A stretch of 64,000 nucleotides of DNA, taken from assembly GCA_026770025.1 (NCBI GenBank), contig JAMXDE010000053.1, positions 186,001-250,000 of the forward strand. The letters are read 5' to 3'. The stretch comes from Craspedostauros australis (Eukaryota; Bacillariophyta; Bacillariophyceae; Mastogloiales; Achnanthaceae). Positions within the stretch are counted from its first letter, which is position 1; every line of letters starts with the position of its first letter. This document shows, piece after piece, positions 9,932-36,133 of the stretch. Position numbers and translations under genes: made by a program. The notes beneath the pieces were generated by a model. That model ran no database searches, was not told the DNA's origin, and worked only from the letters and a program-made list of their open reading frames with translations.

Positions 9932-11389
9932 CTAATTACTCGATGAGCAGAATGCTCCAAGGCAATGCAGGATCGCATCAATCATCGATGTGCCTTTCTT
10001 GTCCACACCGCAAGCAGAAGCATCATCAACTCGGACGAGCCGATCCTCTCTCTTGTCATCCCATGCCTGTTTCAACGTCTCACTGCCCTGCAGCAGAACG
10101 TTAAAAGTCGCGCTCATGGGATCCATTGTACCCATTAGACCCCCTACATGCATTGGACCACGACGTTTGCTTGTTCTCATCAGCATCTCCCCAAACAGGG
10201 CCAGTGGTCGCGACCATGTTGAAAGGGAACACAGCACTGCTCTCACCTTGTTGCGATGATTTTGCCGCAAGTTGCATTCAACAAGCGCATTGTACGAATG
10301 GACATGTTCGTCAGGCGGACGTGGATAAATGTAGAGACGAGTGAGTTGGGTAGTCTGCTCCAAGGCTTGCTGAAGTGCTTCCATTTGTGCCGAGAGAGTC
10401 TCAGGTGGAACTTCAAACCTGCCAGGACCCCCAATGGCAAAGTATCTGAGAGATGACAAGGTCTTGTTTCCCAGGAGCGATATCAATGCGTCGAACCTTG
10501 TCATTTCCTCTTGTTGTGATGACCTAATCCAAAAACTGGACACCTCGAGCTTGTTCAGGTGTGATGCATCTGAAAGAAGTTTGATGATCTGGTCGATTTC
10601 TTGTTGTGAGTAGATTCGTCGGACGCTGTGGACCAGACCGAAATCGATGTAGAACTTGTTGATGCGCTTGTTTGACTGGAATAGCTTTGCCAAGCCATCG
10701 CAAGTGACTCGGGTGTCCAAAAAGGATACTCCGGTGACGCTACAATTGTTTGGAGACAGCCATCTGCACAAATCAGCACCCCCATTGGCGAGCTTGCAGG
10801 TATAAAACCCAACGTATTTGGAGTTTTGGGAGATATTGAACATGAGCTTGTCACAATCAACAAGATCACATGAATACAAACGCACACGATGTGTCACAAG
10901 AGGGATATCATGGAGCTGCTTCATCTCGACGAAGCATGGAGGCAAGTAGATGCCTTCGTCGAATGAAGATTTGAGTGGGTGTTTGGCAGCCAATCGAAGT
11001 ACGAAGCGAATCGCTTGCTTGTCTTCTTCTCCGAATTGGTCATTGCTGCCGAATTCCAGATACAGGTATCGAATGCGCATCCATCCGCAGCTCTCACGAG
11101 ACCAATTGCTCAGTAGAACACGAGGTGCCAAAGCAATGTGTTTGTGCCGAACCACCATCGATTCCAAGTCAGCAAAGGTGAATCCTGCTTCGATGGCCAT
11201 GTCCCAGTATTCCATCCGCTTGGGTGTGACACTGTAGCAGTCGATCTGCTGTCTTGGATGACTCTGCACATTGAACACGGTCTTCGGTATCCACCATTTT
11301 CGATGGAGTTGTTTCCAGAAAGTCTTGAAGTCTGGATCATGATCGGTGTTGGTATTGGTGTTGGCGACAACATCCATGTTGTGGTTCAT
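9932..11389 (-). CDS. RNI-like leucine-rich repeat protein, hypervariable paralog A (485 aa)
   Basis: An intact intronless frame. Residues from about 105 to 360 show repeated short beta-strand/turn patterns (for example RYLYLEF, THRVRLYSC, VTGVSFLDT, NKLEVSS, LTRLYIY) spaced by helical segments, as in RNI-like or LRR_6 proteins. There is no signal peptide or membrane segment, so it is probably cytosolic or nuclear. Such proteins bind other proteins; the partner is unknown. The paralog at 34676-36133 has the same length with no gap, long identical blocks (109-136, 173-193, 261-284, 377-424), and differences concentrated in patches at 79-88, 95-108, 246-260, 285-289 and 317-324. At 220, 222 and 224 every second residue differs, as expected for the exposed face of a beta-strand. 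The intact frame argues for function. Confidence 0.8.
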   Translation of the reverse strand: MNHNMDVVANTNTNTDHDPDFKTFWKQLHRKWWIPKTVFNVQSHPRQQIDCYSVTPKRMEYWDMAIEAGFTFADLESMVVRHKHIALAPRVLLSNWSRESCGWMRIRYLYLEFGSNDQFGEEDKQAIRFVLRLAAKHPLKSSFDEGIYLPPCFVEMKQLHDIPLVTHRVRLYSCDLVDCDKLMFNISQNSKYVGFYTCKLANGGADLCRWLSPNNCSVTGVSFLDTRVTCDGLAKLFQSNKRINKFYIDFGLVHSVRRIYSQQEIDQIIKLLSDASHLNKLEVSSFWIRSSQQEEMTRFDALISLLGNKTLSSLRYFAIGGPGRFEVPPETLSAQMEALQQALEQTTQLTRLYIYPRPPDEHVHSYNALVECNLRQNHRNKVRAVLCSLSTWSRPLALFGEMLMRTSKRRGPMHVGGLMGTMDPMSATFNVLLQGSETLKQAWDDKREDRLVRVDDASACGVDKKGTSMIDAILHCLGAFCSSSN

Positions 11390-11537
11390 CCTTTTCTTGT
11401 TGTCGCTGTCGTTTCCGATTGTTGTTGATTGTTACTGATGATGATTGTTGCTGTTGTTGCTGATTGTTTCTGTTGGTGGTCGGTATAATCGTACGAGTGG
11501 AGCAGGTAGAGCTGATAGAGCAGGCAGAGTCTGTGGT
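11390..11537. other. LRR upstream spacer, copy A
   Basis: The divergent upstream region of the LRR gene, the same as 184-340 and 36134-36255, with a GTT/GAT microsatellite. GGTATAATCG near 11480 is TATA-like when read on the minus strand (ATTATACC) about 90 bp before the ATG; this is weak support for a promoter. Confidence 0.4.
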
Positions 11538-12100
11538 CCCAAATCAGTTGCGCTTGGATGGCGATTGTGAGCTCATCTGCTCAAGTTTGATGTCCTCCAT
11601 TTCATGATCCTGTGCATTGATCACGAAGCAACGTGTCGTCAGTCAACACGCCTGCATGGACTTGCGCAGTTCCACCACGGTGTATGGTGTGGTGTGGTGT
11701 GGTGTGGTTCGGTATGGTATAGTATGGCATGGTACGACCGTGCACAGCCACATCATGATCCGAAGCTGGCTTGCTCGCTCGCTCGCACGATACAACCTTC
11801 GATGATGCCCAACTTGGCCACGCTGTGCAGTTGTGCTTCATCATGTGATGCCATAGTACATCCCTCTGTGATGGTCTTGGGGGGAGTCAACCACGATACT
11901 ATTATTATACTCCGATCGATACACTTCTTCGGGAGTTGGATGTCATCGAACGACTCCGATGGGCTGATCCACGATGTGAAGAATCCACGATGACTTCTTC
12001 GGTGGAAATCAGAGGCGTTTCTCATGTTCTGTGGCGATGACGATGACGACGATGGTGATGACACCACTCGTGTTTCAATCCACAACAAACGTATCCAAGA
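11538..12100. repeat. Module M, copy 2 of 4
   Basis: Nearly identical to copies 1, 3 and 4 up to a common end in GTATCCAAGA. The GGTGT microsatellite is at about 11683-11735. After 12100 it runs into sequence found only behind copy 4, whereas copies 1 and 3 lead into the FAD pseudogene. Confidence 0.7.
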
Positions 12101-12623: not shown

Positions 12624-12758
12624 CTGCGCATCCCCGCACATGCAGCAAGGCACGGCATGTGGCACCAATTGCAACAGCAGCAACAAGAGCAACAGCAACA
12701 ACCCTCTTCGACGATTCCACATGGGTTCTACTGTGCAGAACACACCAGGGCACCATGT

Positions 12759-14702: not shown

Positions 14703-17700
14703 TTAATCCATGGTCGATTTCAATTGAATGATGCTCCCTTTGTGTCTATCGTAGATCTCCTTCTTTGTGTTCTTGGTGAAGCCGTCTGCAATGTTGTCCT
14801 CTGAGCGCACAAATTGAATTCGTGCCTCTCCGTTGTCTATCAGCTCCCGAGTGAAATGATGTCGTATATCGATGTGTCTCGTTCGCGCTGATGTCGACGG
14901 ATTGGAGGCAATGAAGATAGCCCCCACGTTGTCCACGTACACATCCACTGGTTTGGTCATCGTCAACCCGATGTCCTCCATTAGCTGCGTGAGGAAGCGA
15001 ATCTCTTTTCCTGCTTCTGACAGCGCGACGTATTCCGCCTCTGTCGAGCTGAGAGTTACACTTCGTTGTGCCTTCGATCTCCATACGATGGGCACCCCTT
15101 GCAGTAGGACGAGATGTCCCCCGACACTGATCCGGTTATCCTTGTCTCCCGCAAACTCACTGTCTGCGTAGATCTCGATCTTCCATGCGTCGTTCTCCAA
15201 TGGGGTTGGTTGCATTCGTAGTCCGTAGTCCCTCGTGTCCGATACGAACTTCATTACTCGCAGCATCTCCTTGTATGCTGCAGCTGATGGTTCGTCCAAT
15301 ACTTTGGTGAGCTCACGCACCGCATTCGCAATGTCGGGTCGCGAGTGCTTCACCAAGTATAGCAGCATACCTACTCCGCTTCGGTATCTGCTGTGTCGGT
15401 CACTGTCCACTTTGGGTAGGTCGCTGTTTCTCTGGATACCCTGTCCTGGTGTTCCTGGAGTTCCGTATCGTTGTAGAGTCAGCACGTCATCCTTGAATGT
15501 ATCGATGATGTTCTTGATGATGTGTGGCTGGTTCACCCAACAGTTCGACTGATTGTTGTTGAAGATGATCTTGCAGCTGAGGTAGTCTTCGAGGTCGTTC
15601 TCCACCTTGATTCCGAATTGCTCAGCTTTGATGTCGATGGTCAGTTGCTTCAACTCCTCCTTTTCTCCGATGCATAGGCAGTCGTCGACGTAGGTGCCTA
15701 TCAGCAGTAGTCTCCCTTCCTGATTCCGAATCAGAAGGCATGGATCCACTTTGCTCTGTCGAAATCCCAGCTTGAGTAGAATGTCGACCAGCTTTTTGTT
15801 CCATTGTCTGGCGCTCTGCACTAATCCGTAGATGGTCTTCTTGAGCAGCAAGCATTCGTCGGCCTCATGCCTCATCCCCTTTGGGCATTGCATGTAGATC
15901 TCTTCGTCCAGTTCTCCATGTAAGAATGCTGTCTCGAAGTCGATGATCATACTATCCATGTGCAGCAGCATCTTCATAGTGAGCATGATGCGGTAGGTTG
16001 CATCATGAATCACTGGTGCGTGGTGTGCTGAGAAGTCCACTCCTGCGATCTGTGAGTAGCCGCAGGCGACGAGTCTAGCCCGGAAGACTCCGTTCCTCTT
16101 CTCCTTGAATACCCATTTGGTCTTCACGCATCGCCGATCCCTCGGCATTCGGTTCCTCTTGATCTTCTCCCATACTCCCCTTCGGGTCATATCGTTGAAC
16201 TCCTTATTGATGGCCTCTCTCCACTTCGTTCTCTTCTCGGGATCTGCATGGTCCCAGCATTCTTCGAAGGTGGTAGGGTCTAGCATCATAGCTACGCTTG
16301 CTTGCTCGGGTCTGACTCGATCGTTCGTCACTTGGCTCGCAGCGATGAAGTCATCCAATCTCATCTTTCCGTGAGTGGTGTCTATCATCATCCCTGCGAC
16401 GTCTCTGTTGAACATCGACCCGTCTGTATGGAAGCTCGGCCCCTTTGTCGCCGCTGTTTCGGCTTCTGTCTCTTGGGCTGTCTCTTGCTTCTCCTCGTCA
16501 GATTCCGATGCCTCGCTAGATCCGTAGTCTCTGTCCTCCTTAGGAACAGGCGAGTTATTATACCCTGCGAGATCTCTGACCATTCTTGGTACGTGCGCAA
16601 CAGGTGTTGCGACTGGAGTCGAGGGCGGTTCTTGCTCTACCGTTCTTTCCTCACTCCTTCCATCCTCGTCCCTTCCGGATTCATCGCCGACGTCTTCGTC
16701 TGGTTCCTGATCCTCCTGGACGGGTAGCAGGTCGTCCTGCTCTACCGTAGCATCTTCTGAATCTCCTTGTTCTCTGGTTCTGCTGCGCTGGTCATCGTCA
16801 TCGGTTTCTATGTCACTCATACTGTCCGATTGACGAAGCCAAGTCACTCCTCTCTCTGGAGACGAGTCTCTTGATGAGGAGTCGTCGTCTGCGTTCATTA
16901 CTCTGGATCTGCTGGCATCCTTAATACCTTTGAACTCTCCATATGACTTATTCAACCATGTTACGTCTCGAGTCATCAGGATTCTCGAGGTAGCAAGGTT
17001 CATCATGCGGTACACTCCTTTCGCGTGCGACTCTCCATATCCCACGAACATGGCAGGTTTGGAGCGGTCGTCTAGCTTGGCCTTGATAGTCTGTCCACCG
17101 ATGTGTACCATCCCCATCTCGCCGAACACACGCAGGTCATTTGCATACTTCGGGATTTTTCCGTTTAACAGTATACACGCTGGCTCCCTTGACTTCGTGC
17201 CAATGATGTTCTCCAGCTGCGTTGCCGTGTGAGCAGCCTCTGCCCACAGCTTCCCTCGCGTTGTTTTTGGTAGATGGGTTTGGTTCAGCATGGCGCGTAC
17301 TTTGCCGTAGAGTGTCGCGAATTTCCTTTCGACACGACCGTTCTGTTGGGGAGTCGATGCCGCAGTGTACTCGAAGGTTGGGGCGAATCCCTTGTTAAGT
17401 AAGAGTTTCTCTGTAGAACGATTCTCTCCTGCGTTGTCACATCTGACATTCTGAACCGTTACTCGCTGATTCGCCTGGAGCCATTGGAACAACAAAAGCA
17501 TCTTCGACCCCACGTCGCTTTTCTCTGTGATGAAGTAACTCCAGCAGTAGTCACTGTAATCGTCGATCACAAGAAGCCAGTATTTGCCCCTTCCCAGGCT
17601 GTGTGTCTGAACGCTTGATGTGTCCATGAACAATCGATCCCCGACTCCTTTCGCTCGTTGTTGAGTCGATTTCGACATCGATCTCTGACGCGATTTCCCA

Positions 17701-20354
17701 ATCGCGCAGTCAACACACACGTTCAGTTTTCCTGTCACGTTCCAGCCGTACCTCCCTGCTGTTCGAGAGATGGTGTACGCGTCAACGTGGCCTAACATTT
17801 TATGAATTGTGTTGATGTCGACTGGTGCGTCGGTTGACACGCCAATATGAGCTTGGTCGTCGGTCTTGGCATTGCTCACCATATTCACTCCGCAAACGAA
17901 GCCGCTCTGGGTCGCCATGATGCGGTCGAAGCTGATGTGCACGCTGCCCTTTTTCAAGCTGATCACGATGCCGCGGTTGCTAATGTCGAACCCATTTTCG
18001 AGAGCTTTATTGATGCTCAGCAGGTTCACCCACAGCTTCGGCACGTACTTCACTGACTTGAGTACGACGATGGATGTCCTTCCATTCTTCTGCATGACGG
18101 TCATGCGCTTGTCCCCCACCTTGGTTGCTTTGAGGAAGCGTCCGTTTCCGATCTTCACCGATTGGTCGGAGACTTGGACGTTGGTCATCCCTTTGTCACA
18201 GTTGGTGAGATGGCACGATGCACCTGAATCGCCCAGCCAGGTGTTGCTTTCGTAGTGGTCTGGTGCGATGGCGGATCTCTTTGCATCGACGTCGTTCACG
18301 TTCCCGATCATCAGGGCTACCTCGTGGTGATCACCGTGTTCCGTGTAGAGTGGTAACACTGAAAGCGCTGGGTTCGAGTCTCGAACCCCTTTGTTGCTGC
18401 TGTGATGCATCCAGAGGATGGAGTGCGAGGCATGGAGGGTCATGCAGGAGATCAGATTGCTAGGGAAGGGTTGGCGATAGTGAGCTTCCAAGCTGTTGTT
18501 GATGTTGCAGGGGTTGCGACAAACGGACATCGTAGTGATCATGCCGATGTCATGCAGCTTGAAGTATACGGAGCGTGGTTCAATCTGTGGAGTATGGTCC
18601 CCCGTGTGAGCATCCACAGCGTCGTAGCACAATAGGGCGAGTTCGTTTCGCACCGCGTTGGCTGGGAGCACGTTGCTCAACGACGCTCGAATGGCGTAGC
18701 GAAGGGAACCGGTCCTTGCGAGCAGGGCGCGGCGCTCCGCGCGTTCTGCATCATTGCTCGGCACATCCCCGCGTGGGTCGTTGTGGAGCTGGATGAAGAA
18801 TGGGACTTGGGGGCATTCCACGCACCATGCGTAGAGTGGTCCTCTCTTGAGGCACAAAGGGCACCAGGCCGTGTTGGTGGTGAGCCGTGCAGCGTTCTCG
18901 ATCATGCGCTCCACAAGCGTGTGCTCAGGGGCGAAGTTGTACACCGGGCGGGGTGGCTGTCTTCCTTGGTTGGCTTCCCCCATGTCATCGTCGACATCTT
19001 CGGTGTCGGTGGCCCCTTCGTTGGTGAGGCTTGCGTCGTAGTAGGCTTCCTGTCCTGGGTTGGAGTTGCTCATCTTGTTGTTGACGTTGTGTGGTCTCAA
19101 GGAAACAATGGGAGATGTGTCAGTCTGTTCGACGATGGCTGCAAAGGCGACGTCCTCCATTACCTTGGAGTCAGCTTGGTAATTGCTGTCGTTGTCGCGT
19201 GTTTTCGCCTCGCCTGTGTTCACAGACAAGTTGGTCACATTTTCCAATTCGTTCGTGTTTCCCGAGGTGGGCACACAAATTAGCCCATCTGTTGTCACAA
19301 GAGCCACGTCGTTGTTTCCCTCCATCCCATCAGTCGCCACATTGGCCGAGTCTGCCTCCTTCATGGCTGCCTTTAGCTTAAAGCACTGTAGGATCTTGTG
19401 TCCCTTCTTACCGCAGTACTTACACTCCCCATTGAACTTGGGCTTACTGTTGTTGTCTCCTTGCCCACTCTTCTTGTTCTTGCCGTTGCCTTTCTTGGGG
19501 GCGGAGCGACAGTCTGCCTTCTTGTGGCCGTAGGCGCCACAGTTGCGGCAGTGACCTTTGAAGCCTCCTACTGCAGCGAATGCGGTCTCTTCCCTGTTAC
19601 TGTTGCTCTCACGCCTGTTGCCGCCGAGCTTGAGGTGTCGGCCGTCATAGGTGGCGCTGACAGCCTCGCGGATGTCTTCGAGGGTCATGGTGTCCTCCAT
19701 ACCGTCGAACTTGAGCTCCAAGAGCTTGACGTCCGTCTCGTATTCCCTTCCGAGGGCGTTGAGTACGAGCATGTGGTACTGTTGCATATCCATCTTGATG
19801 CCAGTACTACCGAGGCGATTACGCAGCACTTCCATCTCGGTCAGGAACGTGTCTGGGTGCTCACCTTTCTTCAACCGCATCCCGTTGAGTTGAGCCAACA
19901 ACTTTGCCTTGACAGGCGCAGTACGCTGCTCGTAGATGCGTTCAAGGGCCTTCCACGCCTTGCGTGGGTCTCCACTCTCAGTGGGTCCACCCTTGGTTCC
20001 CACCACAGCCATGAAGGCGACATCGCCTTCCGTAGTTTCATGGTTGATCGCCATGGTCAGTTCTTCAAACGCGCACTTGGCCAGCCCATTCTTGTATACC
20101 TCCTTCTCCTCAGCAGTCATCGAGGCTATCTTCTTCGCGATAGACTCACCCTCTTCGATCTTCACATCGGAGATGAGGGCGCTGGGGCCGAAGGGAGCTG
20201 GCTTCACCTCCACCTTGTCTAGATCCATGAGATACAGGTCCTCGAGACCCTTGCTTGCGGCGCGAGCTAGGAACTTGATGCTCCAACCCGTCCAGCTGGA
20301 TCGCTTGCCGTCGAAGATGACAACGCGGTCGCTTTTGCGAAGATAGGAACTCAT
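14703..20354 (-). CDS. Copia-2 gag-pol polyprotein (1883 aa)
   Basis: The frame starts at the ATG opening MSSYLRKSDRVVIFDG, which aligns with the Copia-1 start; the open frame extends 21 codons further upstream without an ATG. In order: two zinc knuckles (CRNCGAYGHKKADC near 268 and CKYCGKKGHKILQC), protease DSGASC near 708, integrase zinc region and DDE core (MDTSS, CDNAGE, RVERKF), reverse transcriptase with YVDD near 1553, and RNase H (YADSEFAGD, STEAEY). It is highly similar to Copia-1 Pol but clearly diverged in the Gag/protease linker (about residues 350-680). No inactivating change is visible. Confidence 0.97.
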   Translation of the reverse strand: MSSYLRKSDRVVIFDGKRSSWTGWSIKFLARAASKGLEDLYLMDLDKVEVKPAPFGPSALISDVKIEEGESIAKKIASMTAEEKEVYKNGLAKCAFEELTMAINHETTEGDVAFMAVVGTKGGPTESGDPRKAWKALERIYEQRTAPVKAKLLAQLNGMRLKKGEHPDTFLTEMEVLRNRLGSTGIKMDMQQYHMLVLNALGREYETDVKLLELKFDGMEDTMTLEDIREAVSATYDGRHLKLGGNRRESNSNREETAFAAVGGFKGHCRNCGAYGHKKADCRSAPKKGNGKNKKSGQGDNNSKPKFNGECKYCGKKGHKILQCFKLKAAMKEADSANVATDGMEGNNDVALVTTDGLICVPTSGNTNELENVTNLSVNTGEAKTRDNDSNYQADSKVMEDVAFAAIVEQTDTSPIVSLRPHNVNNKMSNSNPGQEAYYDASLTNEGATDTEDVDDDMGEANQGRQPPRPVYNFAPEHTLVERMIENAARLTTNTAWCPLCLKRGPLYAWCVECPQVPFFIQLHNDPRGDVPSNDAERAERRALLARTGSLRYAIRASLSNVLPANAVRNELALLCYDAVDAHTGDHTPQIEPRSVYFKLHDIGMITTMSVCRNPCNINNSLEAHYRQPFPSNLISCMTLHASHSILWMHHSSNKGVRDSNPALSVLPLYTEHGDHHEVALMIGNVNDVDAKRSAIAPDHYESNTWLGDSGASCHLTNCDKGMTNVQVSDQSVKIGNGRFLKATKVGDKRMTVMQKNGRTSIVVLKSVKYVPKLWVNLLSINKALENGFDISNRGIVISLKKGSVHISFDRIMATQSGFVCGVNMVSNAKTDDQAHIGVSTDAPVDINTIHKMLGHVDAYTISRTAGRYGWNVTGKLNVCVDCAIGKSRQRSMSKSTQQRAKGVGDRLFMDTSSVQTHSLGRGKYWLLVIDDYSDYCWSYFITEKSDVGSKMLLLFQWLQANQRVTVQNVRCDNAGENRSTEKLLLNKGFAPTFEYTAASTPQQNGRVERKFATLYGKVRAMLNQTHLPKTTRGKLWAEAAHTATQLENIIGTKSREPACILLNGKIPKYANDLRVFGEMGMVHIGGQTIKAKLDDRSKPAMFVGYGESHAKGVYRMMNLATSRILMTRDVTWLNKSYGEFKGIKDASRSRVMNADDDSSSRDSSPERGVTWLRQSDSMSDIETDDDDQRSRTREQGDSEDATVEQDDLLPVQEDQEPDEDVGDESGRDEDGRSEERTVEQEPPSTPVATPVAHVPRMVRDLAGYNNSPVPKEDRDYGSSEASESDEEKQETAQETEAETAATKGPSFHTDGSMFNRDVAGMMIDTTHGKMRLDDFIAASQVTNDRVRPEQASVAMMLDPTTFEECWDHADPEKRTKWREAINKEFNDMTRRGVWEKIKRNRMPRDRRCVKTKWVFKEKRNGVFRARLVACGYSQIAGVDFSAHHAPVIHDATYRIMLTMKMLLHMDSMIIDFETAFLHGELDEEIYMQCPKGMRHEADECLLLKKTIYGLVQSARQWNKKLVDILLKLGFRQSKVDPCLLIRNQEGRLLLIGTYVDDCLCIGEKEELKQLTIDIKAEQFGIKVENDLEDYLSCKIIFNNNQSNCWVNQPHIIKNIIDTFKDDVLTLQRYGTPGTPGQGIQRNSDLPKVDSDRHSRYRSGVGMLLYLVKHSRPDIANAVRELTKVLDEPSAAAYKEMLRVMKFVSDTRDYGLRMQPTPLENDAWKIEIYADSEFAGDKDNRISVGGHLVLLQGVPIVWRSKAQRSVTLSSTEAEYVALSEAGKEIRFLTQLMEDIGLTMTKPVDVYVDNVGAIFIASNPSTSARTRHIDIRHHFTRELIDNGEARIQFVRSEDNIADGFTKNTKKEIYDRHKGSIIQLKSTMD

Positions 20355-20435
20355 GGTGACTTGGTGGTGGTGGTGTTTGTTGCTGTGTTGGTGGGTGATG
20401 GAAACGTTGGATTTCAATCGTAACGTTTCGAAACG

Positions 20436-21212
20436 TGTTGGAAATCCGGGGTTATAGTAGTAGACTAATCTGTTATCAGTCTGTACCGTTTTAGAACTGT
20501 GAGCACAACATGCTCATCTCCTTTCGATTCCAATTCACAACAAGCATGATCTGCAGTAGCCACCCGAGATTACACCCTTCAGCTTGGCTCCTTTCGTCTG
20601 TATCTTCATCTTGCTTTCATCGTGGTTCATTGCTTGCTTGGCTGAGGATTGGAGAGCACCTACATTCGTCAAGTTCATACTCGTAGACCTGTAGGTACCT
20701 CTCCTTCGGTCTCTTGTCACCTCACTGGTCCCACTTCATTTCAGTTCCTCCCTTCGGTCATCTCGATGGTTGCCTTTGGATGCTTGGAACTTATTGTCAT
20801 CTGGATCGTGGTCTTGGGTGAATAGGGATCGCCTCTGTTTCGCTTTCTCACATTAGGTTCTCAGGGACGCGTCGACTTGTTCAGATATATTGGTTGTCGC
20901 GCTCATTCGATTCACTCAGGGCTGGTGTGTTGCCATCGTCATAGATCTCTCGGTTCCCGACCGTTATCGGGACATGGCCGAGTAGGCCACTGGATGAGGG
21001 TGCTTGGATGTCGCATAAGACAGGTAAGGCCATTGGGCTGTCCGAGTGCAACTGGTCGATTGCTAGGTTGCGGTTTGTCTGGGAGATGCTATTGGGGGTT
21101 GCGGCAATCGTGGGTATCTTTGCACTTAACACCATTCCGGTTCCAGTCAGTCCTCATGGGAGCTGCGGTAGAATACGGTATCTTTGCAAAGTCGTACCCC
21201 CGATTCCTGACA
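20436..21212 (-). repeat. Copia-2 5' LTR
   Basis: Equal to 13830-14606 in length and apparently in sequence. It lies upstream of the gag-pol ATG in element orientation. Confidence 0.95.
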
Positions 21213-24390: not shown

Positions 24391-26493
24391 GAAAAATCCT
24401 GCCCGAACTGGAGCACGGACATGAGAAGGTCGTCGTCGTCGACATCGGACCCATCATCATCATTCGCCCTGGTTTGAAGCACCCTTGCAACGGCCTTGCG
24501 CCCATCGGGTGTGGCCATCTTCATGAGGGTGTTGCCCAGTTTCTCGGCCAGCTTCATGTTCTTCTCGCGGAAGCTGGCAAGATTTTGGTGGCGAGCAAGG
24601 AACACGCAGCTGGTGCTCTCGTGCCCTCCACGGCCGCAAGCAGCGCAGATGGCGCCCTTGACTGGCTTGCGGAAGTCGTCGCGGCGAGCGCGGAAGTCTT
24701 GATTGACCCCATCATCATCGTCATCGCTCGCACGATCGCGATTCCCGCGACCACGGCTCTGGCCATGTGGACCGCCTTGGCGTCGTTGGGACCGAGTCAT
24801 GGCATGTGCGGTCTTGGTGTCACCCGCACTGTCAGCGAGCTTGACAGCCAGTTCCCCAACGTGTAGGGTATGAGGAAAGCTGGAGTCATCTTCACGCGCG
24901 AGAACCAGCTCCTTGTACTGATTGACGTTGTGTCCGGCGCTCTGCATCTCATCCAAAAAATGAATGGATGCTCGACGTGGACTGAACTGATGCAGGGACC
25001 CATGTTGGTCAACGAAGGTCATGAGGGACGTCGCGAAAGAGATGACGCCTTGTTTCCCATCAAACCTTGGTGGCATGGGAATGCCCGCAGCCGCCGGCGC
25101 TGTCACCGTGCACTGTAGGACGCGATGCAGAAAGTGGAATGCGTTGAGCATTTCAAAGCTTCGCGTCTGCAGGAAGCGCTGGTAGTGGATGGCAAGCTTC
25201 GTGTCAGGCTTGACCTCGAGCACCCCTGGCGACAGCAGCTTCATGGCGTGCGCCGCGTTGATAGCAGCGACCGTGCTGCTGGTGAGGAAGGATGGAAACA
25301 CGACGCAGTCGACCCTGTAGAAGGAAAGGGGAATGATGTACGCGCCGTACTGCTCCGCCACCATCTGGTAGTGTTCATACCATGTGCGGACATGGTGAGG
25401 TTCCAGACTGCTGAGAGGAGTGACATGGGCATCAAGGAAGCCTCGCTTGTCAACTTGAATGCGCGAGCTGGCTTGATATTGCCACGTGGGATGTTTCTTG
25501 AGGTCGACACCATAAGGCGCGGAATCGTGGTACCTGGCACGGTGTGCCGAGTCTTCACGCATGATGTCATCGAAGAAGTCGTACCCACTGGAGCCGTCCA
25601 CGTGAGTGCGCGCGTTGGCAGCAGCACCACGTTGGTTGGCACCGGTGGGAGCCCCGCGATTGCCATGGCGAGGCGTGCGGAAGTCGGGCGTGGGAATGCC
25701 ACGCTCGAACATGTCCACGAGCTCGGGGTCGTCGACCACGGACCGGTCGAATGCAACGCCACCGTCGTCGCGCTCACGAGTGACGGCGTTGTTCGCAGGT
25801 GCGTCGGCATGCGTCGCAGTCCTGGACCGATCACCGCGGGCGCCGAGTCTTGGAGTAGTGTCCCGCCTTGGTGTGAGCACCACCGCAGGGTGTGTCGCGA
25901 TGGGCGGACCGGCCGCATGGCAAGTCGAAGGTGCCCCCCAACGATGGGATGTTCACGGACGTATCGGAGGCGATGGGATCACCACCCCGATAGAGAGCGG
26001 CAGAGAAGCTCGACCACTGAAAGCCAACTGGCAACGTGGACTGCTGGTACCACTCGCGTAGCGTCTTGAGCTCGTTGAGGTCAGGCTTGCTGATGGACCC
26101 GTACAGATTGACCTGCGCGGCAGCGCGCTGGTCACTGGAGATGCGAAGAAGATTGTGGAACCGCCCCCACACTGAAGGTTCGTCGAGGCAGTTGGTGAAG
26201 TACTTGGCCACCGTGGCGGCACCGGCTGGAGAAAGGTAAGCCACGCGAAGAATGGGCTGTACGAGTGTGCCAGGATCGAAGCTTGCTGGCAGCGCACCGT
26301 CGCCGAGCGCCGCAGTGTTGTCGTTGACATCGCCGGTGACGCCTCCGCCGCGAACGTTGGTACTGCCCCCGTCGCCACGAGAGTCGCCCACGCCGTCGCC
26401 GGGCACAGCGTTGTCAGCACCAGTGCCAAGCGCGTCATCGCCAGTAAGGCTGGATTGGTTGGTGGTGGTGGAGTCGGTTGTGTTGGTCGTCAT
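24387..26493 (-). pseudogene. Copia-3 gag, split by a frameshift near 25830-25900
   Basis: The first part starts MTTNTTDSTTTNQSS at 26493 and stays open to 25831. The second is open from about 25900 to a TAA at 24387 and carries one zinc knuckle (CAACGRGGHESTSC) near 24640. The two halves are one base out of register, and the overlap is GC-rich, so this is either a one-base mutation or an assembly error. Gag coats the RNA in the particle; the knuckle binds the RNA. Confidence 0.8.
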
Positions 26494-26667
26494 GGTGATG
26501 GACACGAATGATGTTGCGAAACGGAAAGCGAGAAAAAGTTTTGTGTGTGAAAAGCAAACTACGCGTGAAACCACGAGGAGAGAGGTCAGCAATGACGCAA
26601 ACTTCGTGTGTGACCGCGGCAGGGATGCGTGAAAAGATCGTGAGATCAGAAAGAAGGCTCAGAAACC

Positions 26668-27433: not shown

Positions 27434-29238
27434 ATGAAGGCACTGCGGTGACTCGGCGCTGCTACGCTATTTGCGGCGATGATCGCTGGGAGTGCAGTCC
27501 CAACAGCAAGTGCCATGGGGAATACAACGGTGAGTCACCTGGATCATCGCACTCATTGCCCTCTGGTGGCCTTCACTGACGTCTTCCATGTTGGGTTCTT
27601 CGCCCGCTGAATCCGTACAATACGTCCATTCGTTCGTATACATGTATGCATGCATGCATTTATGTATGCATGTGTGTAGCATGTATGTATGCTCGCCCTC
27701 ACCCTGGACCATTCCGCCAAATCCTCTCTCTCTCTCTCTCTCTCGCTGTGTTCACGCTGCCTGTACTTGCGATCATCACAACAAATCGGATGAAACGAAT
27801 TCGCTCAATCAACTTGAACTGGAACGACTGTGCCCATCACAACAACTATGACATCACGCTGCAGCATCCCACACCGGCACCGCTTTGCGATGAATGGAGA
27901 TTCGCAACCATTGACGGAGATCTCTTGAATCAAACCTCTCAATCTCTCAGATTCGATGTATTCATTGTTGAAGACGTTCAAATTAACTCCATCAAAGTGT
28001 TTCTGGCTCCTGGCTGTTCCAACATGCCATACAAGAATACACGATCTTCTTCCTTCCCCACATCTGGCAGGTGGACAGCGGGAATTGGACTCAGATCGCC
28101 TCTGGCAACAACGGAGAAGTCGACTCTGATGGTTTCACGGCCTCTCTTCCATTTGATTCGCCTCTGTCCTTTTCAGTGGATACTGGCCTGATTTCCTTTC
28201 GTATCGATATGGCAAACCGGTCGAGGAACGCCCGTGCGGACTTCCCCACCTTGCCTCGAGCCGCCCATTGAAGACCGCCCGAATTGCCCGTTCGGCGTAC
28301 CTGCGGGACTTGGCAGCGTGGAAGTTGATGGCAATCCATCCAGCATCGTTCCAGATGTTGTATTCGCTTTTCCGGGAGTGTTCGAATTCTGTCGCGGCCT
28401 TGCCACTGCGAAGCCAACCGAATCACTCTCCCCTCCATCACAGCATCGCCGACAGCCTTGGCATCTGCCGCTCCGGCCGTGACACCGACAGCTACTTGTC
28501 GAAGCGTGGAGGCAGTGGGCCTTCCTCGGCTGTTCTTTATCGACCAAGTGGAATCGCAGCGATTCGATATTGAGGTGTTGGACACCGTCGATGTCACTGG
28601 CATGAGACCTGCTCTATCCACCGTGGGTAATCAACCATATTCCATCTTCTACCATCCCAGCTCATGGGATGCGCCTGGTGCCTGGAGAGATTGCATCCGG
28701 AACCATCGAGGCGAGAGGTGCAGACGGGTTCACCGATGTGATCTCGTTCAATCCACCGCTGTCCTTTTCAGCAAGCGATGGCATGGTCGCCATCCGTGTG
28801 GATACGCAGACAGAATCATTGAATGATGCCCCGGGGGACTTCGAGCCTATACCACCAGACTGGTTCGAATGTGAGGGATGCCCGTTCATCATGATCCCAG
28901 GGTTGTCAAGCGAAGAGGTTGAAGAGTATCCTGGTGCCGCTTGCGAAGGTTTCTGCGACTTCTTCATGGGATCGTTGGAGTTCTGCAACAACGACTCCCT
29001 CACAGTGTTGACTACGAATACACCATCGGACATGGCATCTGCTTCACCATCGCTTCTGCCATCACCCGCACCGTCGCCGTCGCCTTCGCCGTCATCCAGA
29101 CCATCGTTCATGCCCTCGCCCACACCATCCTCCGCATCATCTTCTCAACCAACCCTGGCCTGGAGCACAAAGGGAGCGAAGGGATCAAAACCATCGAAAG
29201 AAAGCAAAACGAGCAAGTCCGCCAAATCATCCAAGTGA
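27434..29238 (+). pseudogene. Two-repeat secreted protein with Lys/Ser tail, decayed (unit A)
   Basis: A signal-peptide exon starts ATG AAG GCA CTG but here runs into TGA at codon 6; in unit B that codon is read through. A donor CG|GTGAGT at 27530 and an acceptor CTGCAG ending 27864, with a long AG-free tract before it, mark a 335-bp intron. The mature part has two homologous domains of about 130 residues; both have an IASG..DGF..PLSFS..FR(I/V)D core and end in a Cys-rich LEFC. A Ser/Pro-rich linker and a GSKPSKESKTSKSAKSSK tail of diatom type follow. Disruptions shared with unit B are an 8-bp tandem duplication in repeat 1 (28029-28044) and a 2-nt loss near 28690. Disruptions private to A are an extra base near 28245 and a changed (TC)n length. 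The intact ancestor was probably a cell-surface or wall protein. Confidence 0.75.
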
Positions 29239-29755
29239 TCAAGGAGCACCAATGTAGTGATGATGGAGAGGCGATGATGGGAGAGAGTGGGAAGGGAGAA
29301 GATCGCTTGTGCCTGGTCATCGTTGGGCTGTGCGTCGGTGAAGCGGTGCACGACACTCGACGTGACACTTGTCCCACGACGGAACTGTTCGCAACCACTC
29401 TCGCGAAAGATCCCTCCGAGTGAAGTGGGTCACGAAATACGAGTCACGGAAAGCGTGATGAAATGCTGCACTTGGCCTCAGTAGATGGTGAGATGACTCA
29501 GTTGAACACATCCATCTGTTGTCACGATGACGTCAAGTTGCCTTTTCCATCTGCTCCAATTTGTCATACAACAATTTGAATTCTGAATGTCGCATACGAC
29601 AACAAAACGTCACGATGACCACACCGTCCAGCATCTCGGTCGCCACAAACCGCTTCGCACATGACCCTGTTGTTTTTTTTCACAAAACGCAACAAGGCAT
29701 CAACGCGGTGGTCAACATGCTCATGAACAACAGATCAATGATTTCAAAAGACAAC
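29239..29755. other. Unit A intergenic stretch, no gene recognised
   Basis: Collinear with 39935-40480. It has a T-run near 29670-29680; unit B has a local duplication of the ACCGCAC/TCACAAA motif there. No gene seen. Confidence 0.5.
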
Positions 29756-29980
29756 GCGGTACAACGCGACAGATTTCGATCGTGGATACACGTTTCTGCA
29801 CGTTGCAAGTTAGCGAGCATCCTTTCAAAGGCAACGGTCATGGCTTTGCATGTACCAAATACCGTTAGAATGAGCATGCGGATTGCGGCGTCGAAGCACA
29901 GAGTGCACAACATGCGCACTCACGTCGAGCTCCTCTCCAACTTTGAGCCACAGACATCGCGGTACAACGCTGTACAACGC
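29756..29980. repeat. 213-bp segment missing from unit B, bounded by GTACAACGC repeats
   Basis: Direct repeats GTACAACGC at 29759-29767 and 29972-29980, with a longer CGCGGTACAACGC at 29755-29767 and 29958-29970, bracket 213 bp. Unit B has one repeat copy here (near 40492). Loss in B by slippage or recombination is simpler than a gain in A. Confidence 0.75.
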
Positions 29981-30029
29981 GGCAAGTCCAAGTTCTTTCG
30001 TTGTTCTCCTCGTCCTCCATTTGCCTCTT

Positions 30030-30037
30030 CATAAAAG
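30030..30037 (+). promoter_or_regulatory. TATA-like box of the 30152 gene
   Basis: CATAAAAG lies 115 bp before the ATG at 30152. The element and the whole leader from it to the ATG are almost identical at 40549-40556 in unit B, although the proteins downstream differ strongly. Confidence 0.6.
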
Positions 30038-30151
30038 GAGCAACTTCGCAACACAAATTTTCGACGCACACCCCTTCCACATCAACCGACGATTGATCTG
30101 AAGGAGCACTCCCCATCAGCACACGCACACATCCGAACGACAACATCAACC

Positions 30152-30604
30152 ATGGCGAGTTCCACAAACGACGCCCACAATCATGCGATTTTGGCACTTT
30201 CCCTCGCATTTCGAACACTCGGACCCCACAAAGCGAGACTCACTCACGCTGACATTCGGACCTTCGTTGCATGCTCAATAGATGCAATCGACATGATCCA
30301 ACCCCCCCAAGGACGGCAGAGAATCTTGATTAGTTGGGAAAACTTGAGCCGCGCGGTCGATCGTCAAGACGCGACACCGCAAGAGCATTTCAGGACGCTG
30401 GGTCGCTGCATCGGTCGGCTCCCCAGTGTGATTGGATCTGCTCTATTGGGTCCTCGGTGTGCCGTTCTTCCCGACGACATTCTCGACGGGTTCCTGTCAA
30501 ACATGGGGAGCGTGGTGTCCCACTGGGAGAACGAAGGGAACCACGAAAAATTTGAGCGAGCTACGAAGATGCTCAACATGGTATTGGAATACATCCGATC
30601 GTAG
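30152..30604 (+). CDS. Fast-evolving small helical protein, paralog A (150 aa)
   Basis: The frame begins MASSTNDAHNHAILALSLAF in a good context (CAACCATGG). The protein looks alpha-helical, without signal peptide or membrane segment. It sits between the same promoter/leader and the same 3' UTR as the 307-residue protein at 40673, yet the two can be aligned only weakly (DA..HA..AL near the N-terminus, an IG.LP-like segment further on). The frame ends with TAG at 30602-30604, but it stays open and coding-like for another 64 codons to 30796, so the TAG may be a recent nonsense change. An AATAAA at 31010-31015 fits a polyadenylation signal. The family is not recognised and no function is proposed. 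Confidence 0.65.
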   Translation: MASSTNDAHNHAILALSLAFRTLGPHKARLTHADIRTFVACSIDAIDMIQPPQGRQRILISWENLSRAVDRQDATPQEHFRTLGRCIGRLPSVIGSALLGPRCAVLPDDILDGFLSNMGSVVSHWENEGNHEKFERATKMLNMVLEYIRS

Positions 30605-31009
30605 TACGATGTGAATTGGTTGGCCAACACCATTGCAAGACGTGCCCGTGGAGCGGCGAACCAAGTTGCCTCAGGTGTGAACTCTTTCGAAGACGCCATT
30701 GCTGACGGTACCGGCATGCCAATTTGTTTCATGTCCAGCATTGCTAGCAATGCCAACAACAGCAACAACAACAACAACAACGACAGCGGCAACTGATACT
30801 GCTGACCCAGAAGCAGCAGCCGTTGCTGCTCCACCATCTTGTGCAGATCAGGAAGCCGTGCCAACAACGACGACAACGACATCTGCTGCTGGCCCACAAG
30901 CAGCAGCCGCCCCCTCCCGCCCCCTCCAACTAGTGCAGATCAGGACACAAACAGCACAGCCATGAGGGCAACGGAAAACGTAGTAAATAGTAATATAGTG
31001 CAATGATTG

Positions 31010-31015
31010 AATAAA
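31010..31015 (+). terminator. Polyadenylation signal AATAAA
   Basis: AATAAA follows the conserved 3' UTR of the 30152 gene. The same signal is at 41835-41840 behind the paralog. Confidence 0.55.
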
Positions 31016-31057
31016 TACTGACTTCTTACTTTAGTATCTGCTACAACTGTTCTACCA

Positions 31058-32346
31058 TCACTTCGATGGTATTGTGTCCATGAAGATGAAGCGACGCGTT
31101 GGTGCAAGAATGATGCTGAGAACCTCAGCAGCCTGCAACAAATGCTGTTGGATCCAGGATGCATTCCGTTGCGTGACGTGACGCAGGATGGAGGCGAAGG
31201 CAGTCCAGATGGGTCCATATGGATGAATGTCTGATGTCGTCCCGATCGGCGGTTCGAACTTGGCGTATCCCAGGATCAGCACGACGTCGTGCCGTTGTTG
31301 AAGAAGTGTTGGCAGATGGCAGTCTTGCCGACGCCTGCAACACCATCGACGATGACAATCTCGCAGCGGTTCTTGGATCGCAGGTAGGCCTGCTTCAGTC
31401 TGCAGAGCTCATTGACCCGCCCATGAAACTGGATCGGCGGGGCGCGTGTGGGAAGGTATGCGTCGGTTCTTTCGACGGCATCTACTCCTCGTCCTCACAA
31501 TCGATCGGCGGTCTGTCGTCAATGCGCATCGGGTGTGGTGACTTCGATCACCGTTTGCTCGGTGATGTAAGAGAATGGATCGGTCTGCTGACGGTCGACG
31601 CATGTATCGATGCAGGATGATGGCTGGACTGCTCATCTGTGAGGTTGGTAAGGGTCGTCTGCAATGTTGCGACGGTGGCATCATCGATGAGAGATGAGTT
31701 GCGCATGGATCTGTTCGTCTGCTCTTCTTGTCTTGCGCGTAGGAATCGAAGCTGTGTGTGCGCGAGTATTGGAATGTGTACACTTCATTGTTGTCATTCG
31801 CCATGTGGCAACCATCGTTGTTGTTGTTGCCATCATCGCTGGCAAAGTGTATCTTCCTGCCTGGGCCGTACCGACTCTCCAAGTATCGCATGCGTTCTTT
31901 GGCTGTTGCCAGTCTGTCTGCAATGCGGCCACCTTCTTCAGATCGATGAGCGGTTGCTGTGTGGTTGCAAGCTGATGGCCGTGGCGGAGGTTGATGACTC
32001 CTGCAGTTGTTCTTGTCGTAGCTGCTCGTGTGGATGCTTGCGTGGTTGGCAGCTGGAGGTGTTACCAACGAGCCTGCATCCTCCATCGAAGCCGTAGGCG
32101 GAGTCCGCAGGTGAAGCCTTTCCCAGAGTGGACGTTGGGTGTCATGTGTGGCGATCCATGATAGCTTCGGCTGCTGCTGCTGCTGCTGCTGCTGCTGATC
32201 GTCTTGGAGGTGTCGTCGCCCTTGTTGGTTGGATGGGCCATGGCGGTGTGAGCATAGTGCAATGAGCGCGAGACGAAGTGTTTGATCGAGGAGGTGCCTC
32301 CATGGAGATCGACCACGGCCTCATCATCGGGTGCATCGATGTTCAT
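31058..32346 (-). pseudogene. AAA_16 (Orc1-like) ATPase, decayed N-terminal part (unit A)
   Basis: On the minus strand an ATG at 32346 opens MNIDAPDDEAVVDLHGG and a Ser run. The recognisable ATPase start, FHGRVNELCRLKQAY, and the Walker A motif GVAGVGKTAICQHF (about 31300-31420) follow in other frames, and then GYAKFEPPIGTTSD near 31250 in yet another. At least three frame changes and several stops separate the pieces, and nothing after the first third of the ATPase domain is present. Similar genes are numerous in diatoms, where the ATPase precedes signalling domains. The unit B copy shares the breaks, so decay preceded the duplication. An undetected intron could explain one frame change but not all. 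Confidence 0.8.
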
Positions 32347-32559
32347 GATGCTACTCGCATGCCGCTCGCACGTTGGTTGTGTTGGATGTGCAAGGAAATG
32401 GTTTTCTCGCTCGTGGTAATTTGTGGTTGTTGGTCGGCATCCGCCAAATTCCAACCAAGTTGCCAGCTCAACAAGATCCACAACAGAACAAACCACTGAA
32501 TTTTGGTGGGCCTCGCCTTTGAACGAATCAATCGCCAAAGAAATCACCTTTTCTGTGGT
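32347..32559. other. End of unit A and duplication junction
   Basis: Collinear with 43172-43385 up to TTCTGTGGT, where the sequence switches to the start of module M. The six bases TGTGGT (32554-32559) occur in both parents (335-340 and 43380-43385), so this is a microhomology junction of the tandem duplication. Confidence 0.85.
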
Positions 32560-33190
32560 CCCAAATCAGTTGCGCTTGGATGGCGATTGTGAGCTCATCT
32601 GCTCAAGTTTGCTGTCCTCCATTCCATGATCCTGTGCATTGATCACGAAGCAACGTGTCGTCAGTCAACACGCCTGCATGGACTTGCGCGGTTCCACCAC
32701 GGTGTATGGTGGTTCGGTGTGGTATGGTGTGGTATGGTATGGTACGACCGTGGACAGCCACATCCACGATCCGAAGCTGCCTAGCTCGCTCACACGATAC
32801 GACCTTCGATGATGCCCAACTTTGCCACGCTGTACAGTTTCGCCTCTTCATGTGATACCATAGGTCGTGTTATCTGAGTAGGCACATCCCTCTGTAATGG
32901 TCTTGGGGGAGTCAATCACGATACTATTATTATGCTCCGATCGATACGCTTCTTCGAGAGTTGGATGTTATCGAACGACTCCGATGGGCTGATCCACGAT
33001 GTGAAGAATCCACCACGATGACTTCTTCAGTGGAAATCAGAGGCGTTTCTCATGTTCTGTGGCGATGACGATGACGACGATGACAGCGATGACAGCGATG
33101 ACAGCGATGACAGCGATGACAGCGATGACAGCGATGACAGCGATGATGAGCATGACACCACTCGTGTTTCAATCCACAACAAACGTATCC
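32560..33190. repeat. Module M, copy 3 of 4, with GATGACAGC minisatellite
   Basis: Same module as at 341. It carries a run of about seven GATGACAGC nonamers (about 33077-33145) that is absent or reduced to one unit in the other three copies. Translated, the run gives Asp-Asp-Ser repeats, but no credible gene surrounds it. Confidence 0.7.
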
Positions 33191-33660
33191 AGGACTCATC
33201 TCGCCTCACCCAATCGTCGCGAACGACAAATAGCAAGCCATTCGTTGTTTGGCGGTGGCGGCGACGATGACGACAGTGATGGTGGTGGCGCAACAGAAAT
33301 CGCCGCTGCGAATACTGATGCAGATCGCCACAACCACAACCACAACGCTCAACGATGATCTAGCGAGAGACTTCGAACAATGCCGGCTGGTTGACTTGGT
33401 TCCTCACTCATTGATCGCCCAACCACAGAGACAGCCGCAACCAGAAGAATCACGGCAATGGCACCAATGGCACCAATGGCATCGTCGATGCATCAAAAGA
33501 GGACGATTGGTGCCATCAACATTGCGTGCATGGTGGTGGCAACGAACTCACGGTCATCCCCGTCGTCCCCGTCATCCTCACTCCAACGCAGAAGCGAAGC
33601 AGCAGCAGGAGCAGCAGGAGAAGAAGCAATGAGAGTGAGAGTGGGAACCACCAACCAATA
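33191..33660. other. No gene recognised; upstream of FAD pseudogene B
   Basis: Collinear with 891-1446, with a shorter CAC/AAC microsatellite and an interrupted CAG run near 33600-33630. Confidence 0.5.
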
Positions 33661-34388
33661 CGGAAGATTGCCGTGATCGGCGGTGGCAGCGCTGGGCTCT
33701 CCTGGCGCAAGCTTTCGAGAACAACAGCAATACCAACACCAACGACACCAACGACAACAGCGACAACAGCGACAACAACGTCGCTTGGAAGGCATCATCC
33801 AAGGCTGAGCGCATCCAGCAGCAGATGCGACAGTAGATCGATGATGCCAAGATCCCCAAGCACACCATCAGGCCCATCATCGATCGACTCATCGACAATG
33901 CCAATCGTTTCTTCGAGTTGGGGATCTACTTCCACAAGCCCTTTGCGTGACAGACCAAGGCGATGATGGCCACCCACGGCAACTGCAATGGAAGCACTTG
34001 CAAAGACGCAGATGTGGAGAAAGCCGCCATCCTGACTGTCTGCAGTGATGCGGCGCACGCTGTGCCTCTGTTCCTTGGACAGGGCACCAATCAGGCCATC
34101 CAAGACACCTACTGTCTGGCCAACGCCATTCGGCAATACAATATGCAATACGATGAACAAGCCAATGGCGGGAACAGCCTCAAAGACATCCTGCAGATAG
34201 AATACATGGACAAGTGATGGTCCACCATCGGGACCATCACGTCCAGCATGGCCAACCCTGGTCTGATGGGATACCTGAAGGCCTTGTGAGGACCGTTGGC
34301 CAAGTTCCGGGATGTGTTCTTCTTCATCATGGACAAGATGGGCGTTGCGAAGAAGACCGTTCTGGATGATGCTGTTCTGAGGATATGA
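33661..34388 (+). pseudogene. FAD-dependent monooxygenase, decayed (unit B)
   Basis: The same remnant as 1447-2189: IAVIGGGSAGLSW near 33670 and DAAHAVPLFLGQGTNQAIQD near 34050-34100 in different frames, with the centre of the enzyme missing. TGA stops at 33948-33950 and 34287-34289 are shared with unit A. A further TGA at 34215-34217 (MDK then stop, where A has MDKRWSTIG) is private to B, and the catalytic GDAAH has become SDAAH. Confidence 0.85.
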
Positions 34389-34675
34389 GAATGTGCGGAG
34401 CAGTGCGAAATCGCGACGTGAAATCGCGACGTGAAATCGCGCTGTGGTGCAGATAGGTTCTGTGGACGGCTTTCGCTTGTTGTTGATGGACCAGCCACAC
34501 TTGTACGATCCAAACATTCCATACTTCTCACCAACCACACCACTCAATCATTATCATAATCACAAGTGAACATCTCCCAATCAATCAACCAGCCAACCAC
34601 CTCCCTTTTCCATCTCACTCATACGACAACACACTCACATGCACCAGAGTATCAATACTGTCTTCATGTACTGTT

Positions 34676-36133
34676 CTAATTACTCGACGACAAGAGTACT
34701 CCAAGGCCATCCAGGATCGCATCAATCATCGATGTACCTTTCTTTTCCACATGACAAGCAGAAGGATCATCAACTCGGACGAGTTGATCCTCTCTCTTGT
34801 CATTCCACGCTTGTTTCAACGTCTCACTGCCCTGCAGCAGAATGTTGAAAGTCTCGCTCGTGGGATCCATTGTACCCATTAGACCCCCTACATGCATTGG
34901 ACCACGACGTTTGCTTGTTCTCATCAGCATCTCTCCAAACAGGGCCAGCGGTCGTGACCATGTTGAAAGGGAACACAGCACTGCTCTCACCTTGTTGCGA
35001 TGATTTCGCCGCAAGTTGCATTCAACAAGCGCATTGTACGAATGGACATGTTCGTCAGGCGGGTCTCGATAAATGTAGAGATGGGTGAGTTGGGTAGTCT
35101 GCTCCAAGGCTTGCTGAAGTGCTTTCATTTGTGCCGAGAAGATCTCGGGCGCAACCTCAAACATGCTGGGAACATCAAAATGACGATATCTGAGAGATGA
35201 CAAGCTCTTGTTTCCCAGGAGCGAGATCAAAGTGTCGAACCTTGTCATCCCCTCTTGTTGCGATGACATGTCCCAAGTACAGGAAACCTCGAGCTTGTTC
35301 AGGTGTGATGCATCTGAAAGGAGTTTGATGATCTGGTCGATTTCTTGTTGTGAGTGGATTTGTTGAGTGTCGGAGAGCCGAGACCAATTGATGTTGAGCT
35401 TGTTGATGCGCTTGTTTGACTGGAATAGCTTTGCCAAGCTATCGCAAGTGATACGGGTGTCCCAAAAGAATACTTCGGTGACACTGCAATTGTTTGGAGA
35501 CAGCCATCTGCACAAATCAGCGCCCCCATTGGTGAGCTTGCAGAAACAAAACGAAACGTATTTGGAGTTTTGGGAGATGTTGAACATGAGCTTGTCACAA
35601 TCAACAAGATCACATGAATCAAAATGCACACGATGTGTCACAAGAGGGATATCATGGAGCTGTTTTATCTTCACGAAGCATGGAGGCAAGCAGATGCCTT
35701 CGCCGAATATAGATTTGGCTGGGCGTTTGGCAGCCAATCGAAGTACAAAGCGAATGGCTTGCTTGTCTTCTTCTCCGAATTGGTCATTGCTGCCGAATTC
35801 CAGATACAGGGATCCAATACCCATCCATCCGCTTCTCTGAAAAAGCGATTTGCTCAGTAGAACACGAGGTGATACAGCAACGTGCTTGTGCCACCACTGC
35901 ATCGATTCCAAGTCAGCGACGGTGAATCCTGCTTCGATGGCCATGTCCCAGTATTCCATCCGCTTGGGTGTGACACTGTAGCAGTCGATCTGCTGTCTTG
36001 AATGACTCTGTATATTGAATGCAGTCTTCGGAACCCACAATTTTCGATGGAGTTGTTTCCAGAAAGTCTTGAAGTCTGGATCATGATCACTGTTGGTATT
36101 GGTGTTGGCGACAGCATGCATGTTGTGGTTCAT
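34676..36133 (-). CDS. RNI-like leucine-rich repeat protein, hypervariable paralog B (485 aa)
   Basis: Intact and exactly as long as paralog A (9932-11389), with no gap in the alignment. Constant blocks alternate with patches that are almost completely replaced: 13 of 15 residues differ at 246-260, 7 of 8 at 317-324, 10 of 14 at 95-108 and 4 of 5 at 285-289, while 377-424 and 261-284 are identical. The patches coincide with predicted LRR strands such as NKLNINW and SLRYRHF. No signal peptide is seen. Retention of an open frame through this much change indicates selection. The protein is presumably a binding or recognition protein; the partner is unknown. Confidence 0.8.
   Translation of the reverse strand: MNHNMHAVANTNTNSDHDPDFKTFWKQLHRKLWVPKTAFNIQSHSRQQIDCYSVTPKRMEYWDMAIEAGFTVADLESMQWWHKHVAVSPRVLLSKSLFQRSGWMGIGSLYLEFGSNDQFGEEDKQAIRFVLRLAAKRPAKSIFGEGICLPPCFVKIKQLHDIPLVTHRVHFDSCDLVDCDKLMFNISQNSKYVSFCFCKLTNGGADLCRWLSPNNCSVTEVFFWDTRITCDSLAKLFQSNKRINKLNINWSRLSDTQQIHSQQEIDQIIKLLSDASHLNKLEVSCTWDMSSQQEGMTRFDTLISLLGNKSLSSLRYRHFDVPSMFEVAPEIFSAQMKALQQALEQTTQLTHLYIYRDPPDEHVHSYNALVECNLRRNHRNKVRAVLCSLSTWSRPLALFGEMLMRTSKRRGPMHVGGLMGTMDPTSETFNILLQGSETLKQAWNDKREDQLVRVDDPSACHVEKKGTSMIDAILDGLGVLLSSSN

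Follow-up and report, generated by a model that had tools for sequence, protein, structure and literature searches.

The window analysed here, a 64,000-nucleotide stretch of the genome of the diatom Craspedostauros australis (contig JAMXDE010000053.1, positions 186,001 to 250,000), contains two leucine-rich repeat (LRR) genes and the 5' end of a third. Both complete genes are 485-residue open reading frames whose proteins align without gaps, as the original prediction, made from the DNA letters alone, had described them; they lie on the minus strand. That prediction had also noted a third, partial copy at positions 1–183. Its distinct triplet at residues 32–34 stands (the three copies read WWI, LWV and ELS), whereas the piece is not partial: it is the start of a full-length gene that leaves the window.

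9932..11389, minus strand: LRR gene copy 1, one uninterrupted open reading frame of 485 amino acids
34676..36133, minus strand: LRR gene copy 2, open reading frame of 485 amino acids; protein 81% identical to copy 1
1..183, minus strand: third copy, 5' end (codons 1–61) of the full-length gene C51:184729-186183, which crosses the window edge
10310..11080, minus strand: copy 1, predicted ribonuclease-inhibitor-type LRR solenoid, residues ~104–360, with alternating strands and helices; coordinates converted by hand
10610..10654, minus strand: copy 1 patch 246–260, end of strand 245–249 and the loop after it
35354..35398, minus strand: copy 2 patch 246–260
10418..10441, minus strand: copy 1 patch 317–324, end of strand 311–319 and loop
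35162..35185, minus strand: copy 2 patch 317–324
11066..11107, minus strand: copy 1 patch 95–108, loop and strand 104–106, start of the LRR region
35810..35851, minus strand: copy 2 patch 95–108
10718..10732, minus strand: copy 1 strand 220–224, variable at alternate residues
35462..35476, minus strand: copy 2 strand 220–224, variable at alternate residues

Clustered differences and the predicted fold

The two window proteins differ at 92 of 485 residues in an ungapped alignment, and a further 29 codons differ only silently. The differences are packed into patches just as had been claimed: 13 of 15 residues differ at 246–260, 7 of 8 at 317–324 and 10 of 14 at 95–108, with none among the 24 residues at 261–284 or the 48 at 377–424. 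In the strand 220–224, residues 220, 222 and 224 differ and residues 221 and 223 are the same. This clustering is far beyond chance. When the differences were shuffled 20,000 times, 13 within 15 residues were never reached, eight within eight residues were reached 19 times, and an identical run of at least 48 residues 52 times.

In the AlphaFold2 model (four sequences), strands and helices alternate to form a solenoid, predicted to be an LRR of the ribonuclease-inhibitor type with repeating strand-helix units and buried hydrophobic positions. The closest solved folds among the matches listed are NLRP9 and ribonuclease inhibitor. Within residues 121–360, ten-residue means of the predicted local distance difference test (pLDDT) are mostly 70–88, with dips to 64 (141–150), 60 (251–260) and 54 (321–330). 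Patches 246–260 and 317–324 are placed by the model at strand ends and the loops after them, where its confidence is low; the densest patches extend beyond the strand into the following loop.

Family size and selection on codons

The whole genome (74.8 Mb, 90 contigs) was searched for relatives. A divergent family member used as the query found at least 95 matching places (125 candidates), and copy 1 found 88; the earlier observation thus understates the extent of the family. Members are 65–83% identical to copy 1, occur in tandem groups with a spacing of ~3.4–5 kb as well as spread over many contigs, and align along their length with few gaps. We retrieved 86 copies, 82 of them distinct in the aligned coding part; together with a paralog of 45% identity (C35:617176) these account for 87 of the 95 places, and the eight left out are near-duplicates, fragments or truncated matches. 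The frames of 59 of the 82 copies are free of stops, 20 have a stop at or after reference codon 430 and three have an earlier one, so that 79 are open as far as codon 430. A still more distant paralog of 38% identity (L089, C25:255477-257484) is possibly the start of a second subfamily. Two loci on different contigs (L024 and L025, at C13:1849546 and C35:654062) are 99.9% identical over 4.46 kb and represent either uncollapsed haplotypes or a recent large duplication.

Selection on individual codons was estimated with a FUBAR-style grid of our own, which gives each codon separate silent and replacement rates, on either one tree or local trees. For the 82 copies, 103 codons were classed as diversifying with one tree and 102 with local trees (87 with both), and 80 and 97, respectively, as purifying. 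For 64 copies, the diversifying codons numbered 99 and 118 (83 with both). Mean silent and replacement rates across the 82 copies are nearly equal (0.91 and 1.01), and therefore a gene-wide ratio hides two classes of sites. Counting by NG86 gave ratios of replacement to silent change (dN/dS) among 64 copies of 1.36 for strands plus three residues, 0.44 for helices, 0.68 for the N-terminal segment and 0.61 for the C-terminal segment; in the window pair the strands stand at 1.28 and the helices at 0.14. The gene-wide values, 0.81 for the 64 copies and 0.66 for the pair, reflect this mix of diversified and constrained sites.

The selected codons map to one side of the predicted strands. Outward and inward residues were assigned from strand alternation and the hydrophobic pattern rather than from coordinates, which ties the two classes partly to conservation; on this assignment, 13–18 of 21 outward strand residues are selected, depending on run and tree, and none of 14 inward residues in any run. 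Under both trees together the outward count is 15 with 64 copies and 13 with 82. Among the 64 copies, dN/dS is 1.81 at outward and 0.34 at inward positions, and 1.04 over the nine residues after each strand core. Entropy reaches at least 1.5 bits at 101 positions, which include 17 of the 21 outward residues and none of the inward ones.

Silent sites bear on whether the patches are merely mutable. At fourfold sites, silent diversity next to selected codons is 0.126, compared with 0.107 farther away (p 0.19), and at twofold sites 0.072 compared with 0.068 (p 0.98); silent diversity at conserved codons beside selected sites is thus not significantly raised, and a modest rise is possible. Ordinary codons vary more at base 3 than at bases 1 and 2; in the 40 most variable ones this is turned round, with bases 1 and 2 showing about twice the variation of base 3. 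On these silent and codon-base patterns we reject a mutational hot spot as the main cause, with a reservation for the higher base-3 diversity and counted silent divergence (dS) given below. Pseudogene drift was likewise rejected, on the frames open to codon 430 and the absence of selected inward positions. A cassette library, in which a small fixed set of patches would be the main source of variants, was rejected because 24-base patch haplotypes are nearly all unique (58 distinct among 64 copies at codons 281–288), and this uniqueness makes point mutation with selection the probable main source. For comparison with the targets of diversity-generating retroelements, where variation would be confined to template adenines, the 40 codons that vary most show all four bases at base 1 in 78% and at base 2 in 68% of cases; no template-repeat search was made.

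Block exchange, relatives and flanking sequence

The original prediction had offered diversifying selection or templated exchange on the exposed face of an LRR sheet, and the sequence comparisons show both diversifying selection on the outward face and some exchange of blocks. Clear mosaics can be discerned among the copies, and strict tests point to few recent events. Loci L045 and L057 have no differences before codon 289 and 64 differing codons after it. Another case is P0004, a 246-residue protein from a 938-base metagenome contig, which departs from a gene on contig C74 at just 13 residues, all within a stretch of 30. Over this stretch it matches L076, a locus on another contig, exactly (32/32), and the informative sites run in the order 47 backbone, 13 donor and 30 backbone. 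L076 was among 20 loci added later; the best match to the stretch among the first 68 loci had eight mismatches. The block lies at about residues 352–381 (hand numbering), overlapping strand 351–355 and the next helix.

Family-wide statistics are mixed. A PHI-like statistic was 0.537 against a permutation mean of 0.587, with none of 1,000 permutations as low; associations between selected codons decay over ~5 codons, and correlations of distances between segments are low (0.06–0.38). A strict 300-base identity-window test was passed by 2 of 3,233 pairs (0 of 6,466 under the null), and in 43 of 1,883 divergent pairs the exact runs exceed the 99th percentile of a simulation of 400 pairs, where ~19 are expected. 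An exact donor was found for 22 of 49 difference clusters in ten chosen, mutually overlapping close pairs, and since the clusters are only 5 to 58 bases long, some of these are due to chance. Three sandwiched blocks in the genome (codons 313–327, 184–196 and 347–373) have no exact donor among the 82 copies. A donor-block scan, whose score ignores relatedness, reached 30 or more in 70 of 82 copies, compared with 29–37 of 82 in four codon-shuffled alignments. Whatever the distance, linkage between silent sites stays close to background; since this could also result from recurrent mutation in a star-like expansion, we do not count it as proof. Mutation and selection probably make most variants, which conversion then reshuffles.

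A protein search matched only P0003, identical to one locus of the same genome, and P0004, a near-allele in a JGI record that is 95% identical to another locus of this genome and is the sole match beyond it. Scans of viral contigs and of prokaryote genomes, each with two short peptide patterns, confirmed no relative; the C-terminal segment as the sole query had no match, and a sequence search of the PDB returned chance-level matches only (best E 0.2). With no relative outside the organism or its near kin in these searches, the family appears to be lineage-specific.

Two features flank the window genes:

11390..12090, minus strand: ~700-base stretch upstream of copy 1, to which 40–48 of 49 other flanked loci align (sampled every 100 bases)
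33951..34214 (within 33415-34217), plus strand: FAD-dependent monooxygenase gene remnant, convergent, downstream of copy 2 (PF01494, 22.4 bits against a cut-off of 22)

The downstream stretch of copy 2 aligns to about two-thirds of the other flanked loci, and that of copy 1 does not; the monooxygenase remnant therefore probably moved with the tandem unit. Inspection by eye also revealed an apparent segmental duplication (~27646-33300 and 38380-44000) with duplicated open reading frames at 28669-29238 and 39359-39934 and at 31409-32086 and 42234-42911, as well as three copia-like retroelements on the minus strand (3153-8936, 14703-20417 and 21154-26592), two of them with single long open frames. 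Elsewhere in the genome, silicon transporter genes (PF03842) give 88 matches on many contigs, ~30 of them almost complete, an apparent large expansion; this gene content by itself points to a probable silicified alga, likely a diatom. A study of Nitzschia putrida treats this transporter family as expanded and under diversifying selection (PMC9054022).

Interpretation and comparison with known systems

We consider it probable that these genes encode stand-alone LRR recognition proteins, a large family apparently confined to this lineage, whose ligand face has been kept changing by selection. The family size (a lower bound), open frames, site pattern, dN/dS values and mosaics that suggest this are read from the sequences themselves. 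The conserved N-terminal segment, helices and C-terminal segment would hold the solenoid in shape, and the outward strand residues with the loops right after them would form the face altered by selection. Diversity would arise from duplication, both tandem and dispersed, from point mutations favoured by positive selection and from gene conversion of blocks. Such a pattern is what one would expect of proteins that recognize changing ligands directly, and a diversified recognition repertoire is the likeliest role, a recognition or immune function being one that we infer. The face would bind fast-changing non-self ligands inside the cell, such as viral, bacterial or parasite proteins or proteins of other individuals, and the conserved ends would relay a signal or recruit an effector. 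Because inspection by eye reveals neither a signal peptide nor a membrane segment, our working model is an intracellular receptor or adaptor with the conserved ends as its output side. More tentatively, the family may comprise nearly 100 intracellular stand-alone LRR receptors, immune-like and without a known signalling domain, with faces renewed by selection and templated copying of blocks between contigs.

Several points weigh against this interpretation. The structural model has a mean pLDDT of 67.6. Gene-wide dN/dS is below 1 (0.81, 64 copies), and the selected codons include some away from the LRR strands, for instance at 79–81, 412–416 and 453–479 (82 copies). Codon rates come from our own grid implementation instead of HyPhy or PAML, and exchange breaks the assumption of a single tree. 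Base-3 diversity is 0.262 at the 40 most variable codons and 0.116 at the least variable, an excess that is partly replacement change at base 3, with a modest silent rise also possible; counted dS is 0.29 at outward and 0.20 at inward codons. The P0004 block alters one outward strand position only (355), and a few of the counted places may be uncollapsed haplotypes. With E up to 0.1 for 27 members and up to 1 for both window proteins, Pfam scans found no NB-ARC, NACHT, ROC, ROC-COR, kinase, TIR or F-box match, a highly divergent F-box still being possible. The absence of a signal peptide was judged by eye only.

Among other explanations, the LRR face might choose what a conserved machine, for example a ubiquitin ligase, acts on. 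Adaptor families with F-box or BTB domains evolve fast in worms and plants, and the same scans gave no F-box or BTB match here; we regard such variable substrate adaptors as unlikely, and as compatible with the recognition reading rather than exclusive of it. Mating, kin or species recognition, in which the variable face would separate self from partner as has been suggested for MRP2 and MRM2, ranks next, at a low probability. These two LRR genes of diatoms show a mating-type bias (PMC6261938), and LRR receptor-like genes make up 2 of 11 sex-regulated genes with Ka:Ks above 1 in Pseudo-nitzschia (PMC5485032). MRP2 and MRM2, however, have transmembrane segments, none of which is evident by eye in the present family, and we infer that nearly 100 loci are many for a mating system. 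Improbable, too, are inhibitors of toxins or selfish elements that would act by tight binding in the manner of ribonuclease inhibitor: ribonuclease inhibitor is among the closest folds listed and the window genes sit among copia-like elements, but the likeness is at the level of the fold and such elements are common in genomes of this kind. Hot spots, relaxed constraint or functionless decaying duplicates are very unlikely and largely contradicted. In their favour, gene-wide dN/dS is not far below 1, some copies have stops or are fragmentary, and outward codons have a slightly higher dS. Against them, selected sites have no significant excess of silent diversity beside them, base 3 varies less than bases 1 and 2, no inward position is selected, and 79 of 82 frames are open to codon 430.

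For a family of diversified recognition proteins, the closest known systems are the plant highly variable NLRs (hvNLRs) and brown-algal LRR-ROCO proteins, whose signalling domains have no match here. In Arabidopsis hvNLR clades such as RPP13 and RPP8, residues of high entropy are grouped on the surface of the LRR and coincide in part with sites under positive selection, and paralogs exchange sequence (PMC8226289, PMC6771003). High-entropy residues on the LRR strand face and exchange between paralogs are shared with the present family, which has 101 positions of at least 1.5 bits against an hvNLR threshold of 10, paralogs being compared here and near-allelic series there. Unlike hvNLRs, it consists of stand-alone LRRs, with no NB-ARC, TIR or CC domain found and nearly 100 copies of one family. 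The original prediction knew of no well-described system of this sort in diatom-like algae; a comparable one is known in brown algae, which are also stramenopiles. Their LRR-ROCO proteins are candidate immune receptors with four concave-side LRR positions under positive selection, and most of the genes carry each LRR in a separate, shuffled 72-bp exon, together with ROC-COR domains (PMC11378527). The stramenopile host and the selected ligand face are common to both. In contrast, the changes here occur in place in one uninterrupted frame, without a ROC-COR match; judged from genome sequence, both window copies are 485-codon open reading frames and 59 of 82 aligned frames are stop-free, in place of one LRR per exon.

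Tandem LRR expansion also links the family to other diatoms, since LRR proteins are among the main tandem duplicates in Seminavis robusta and enriched in Nitzschia putrida (PMC7335047, PMC9054022). Those of N. putrida are described as secreted, and the text passages on the two species do not describe site-level selection or exchange in these LRR families. Young, species-specific LRR families with signs of ectopic recombination are also on record (PMC6564038); their exon units vary in number, whereas the present copies align over their length with few gaps. Among the open-licence literature matches listed, there was no account of this family or of any hypervariable diatom LRR family, and their passages describe no diatom LRR family with diversification at the level of sites or with exchange of blocks.

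To our knowledge, how microalgae recognize viruses, bacteria or mates is largely open. The family offers a concrete set of candidate genes with a predicted binding face and named variable positions, and includes a case of block conversion whose donor can be named (the P0004 stretch from L076). Should it turn out to serve recognition, receptors of the repertoire type would be extended to a silicified alga that lives as a single cell.

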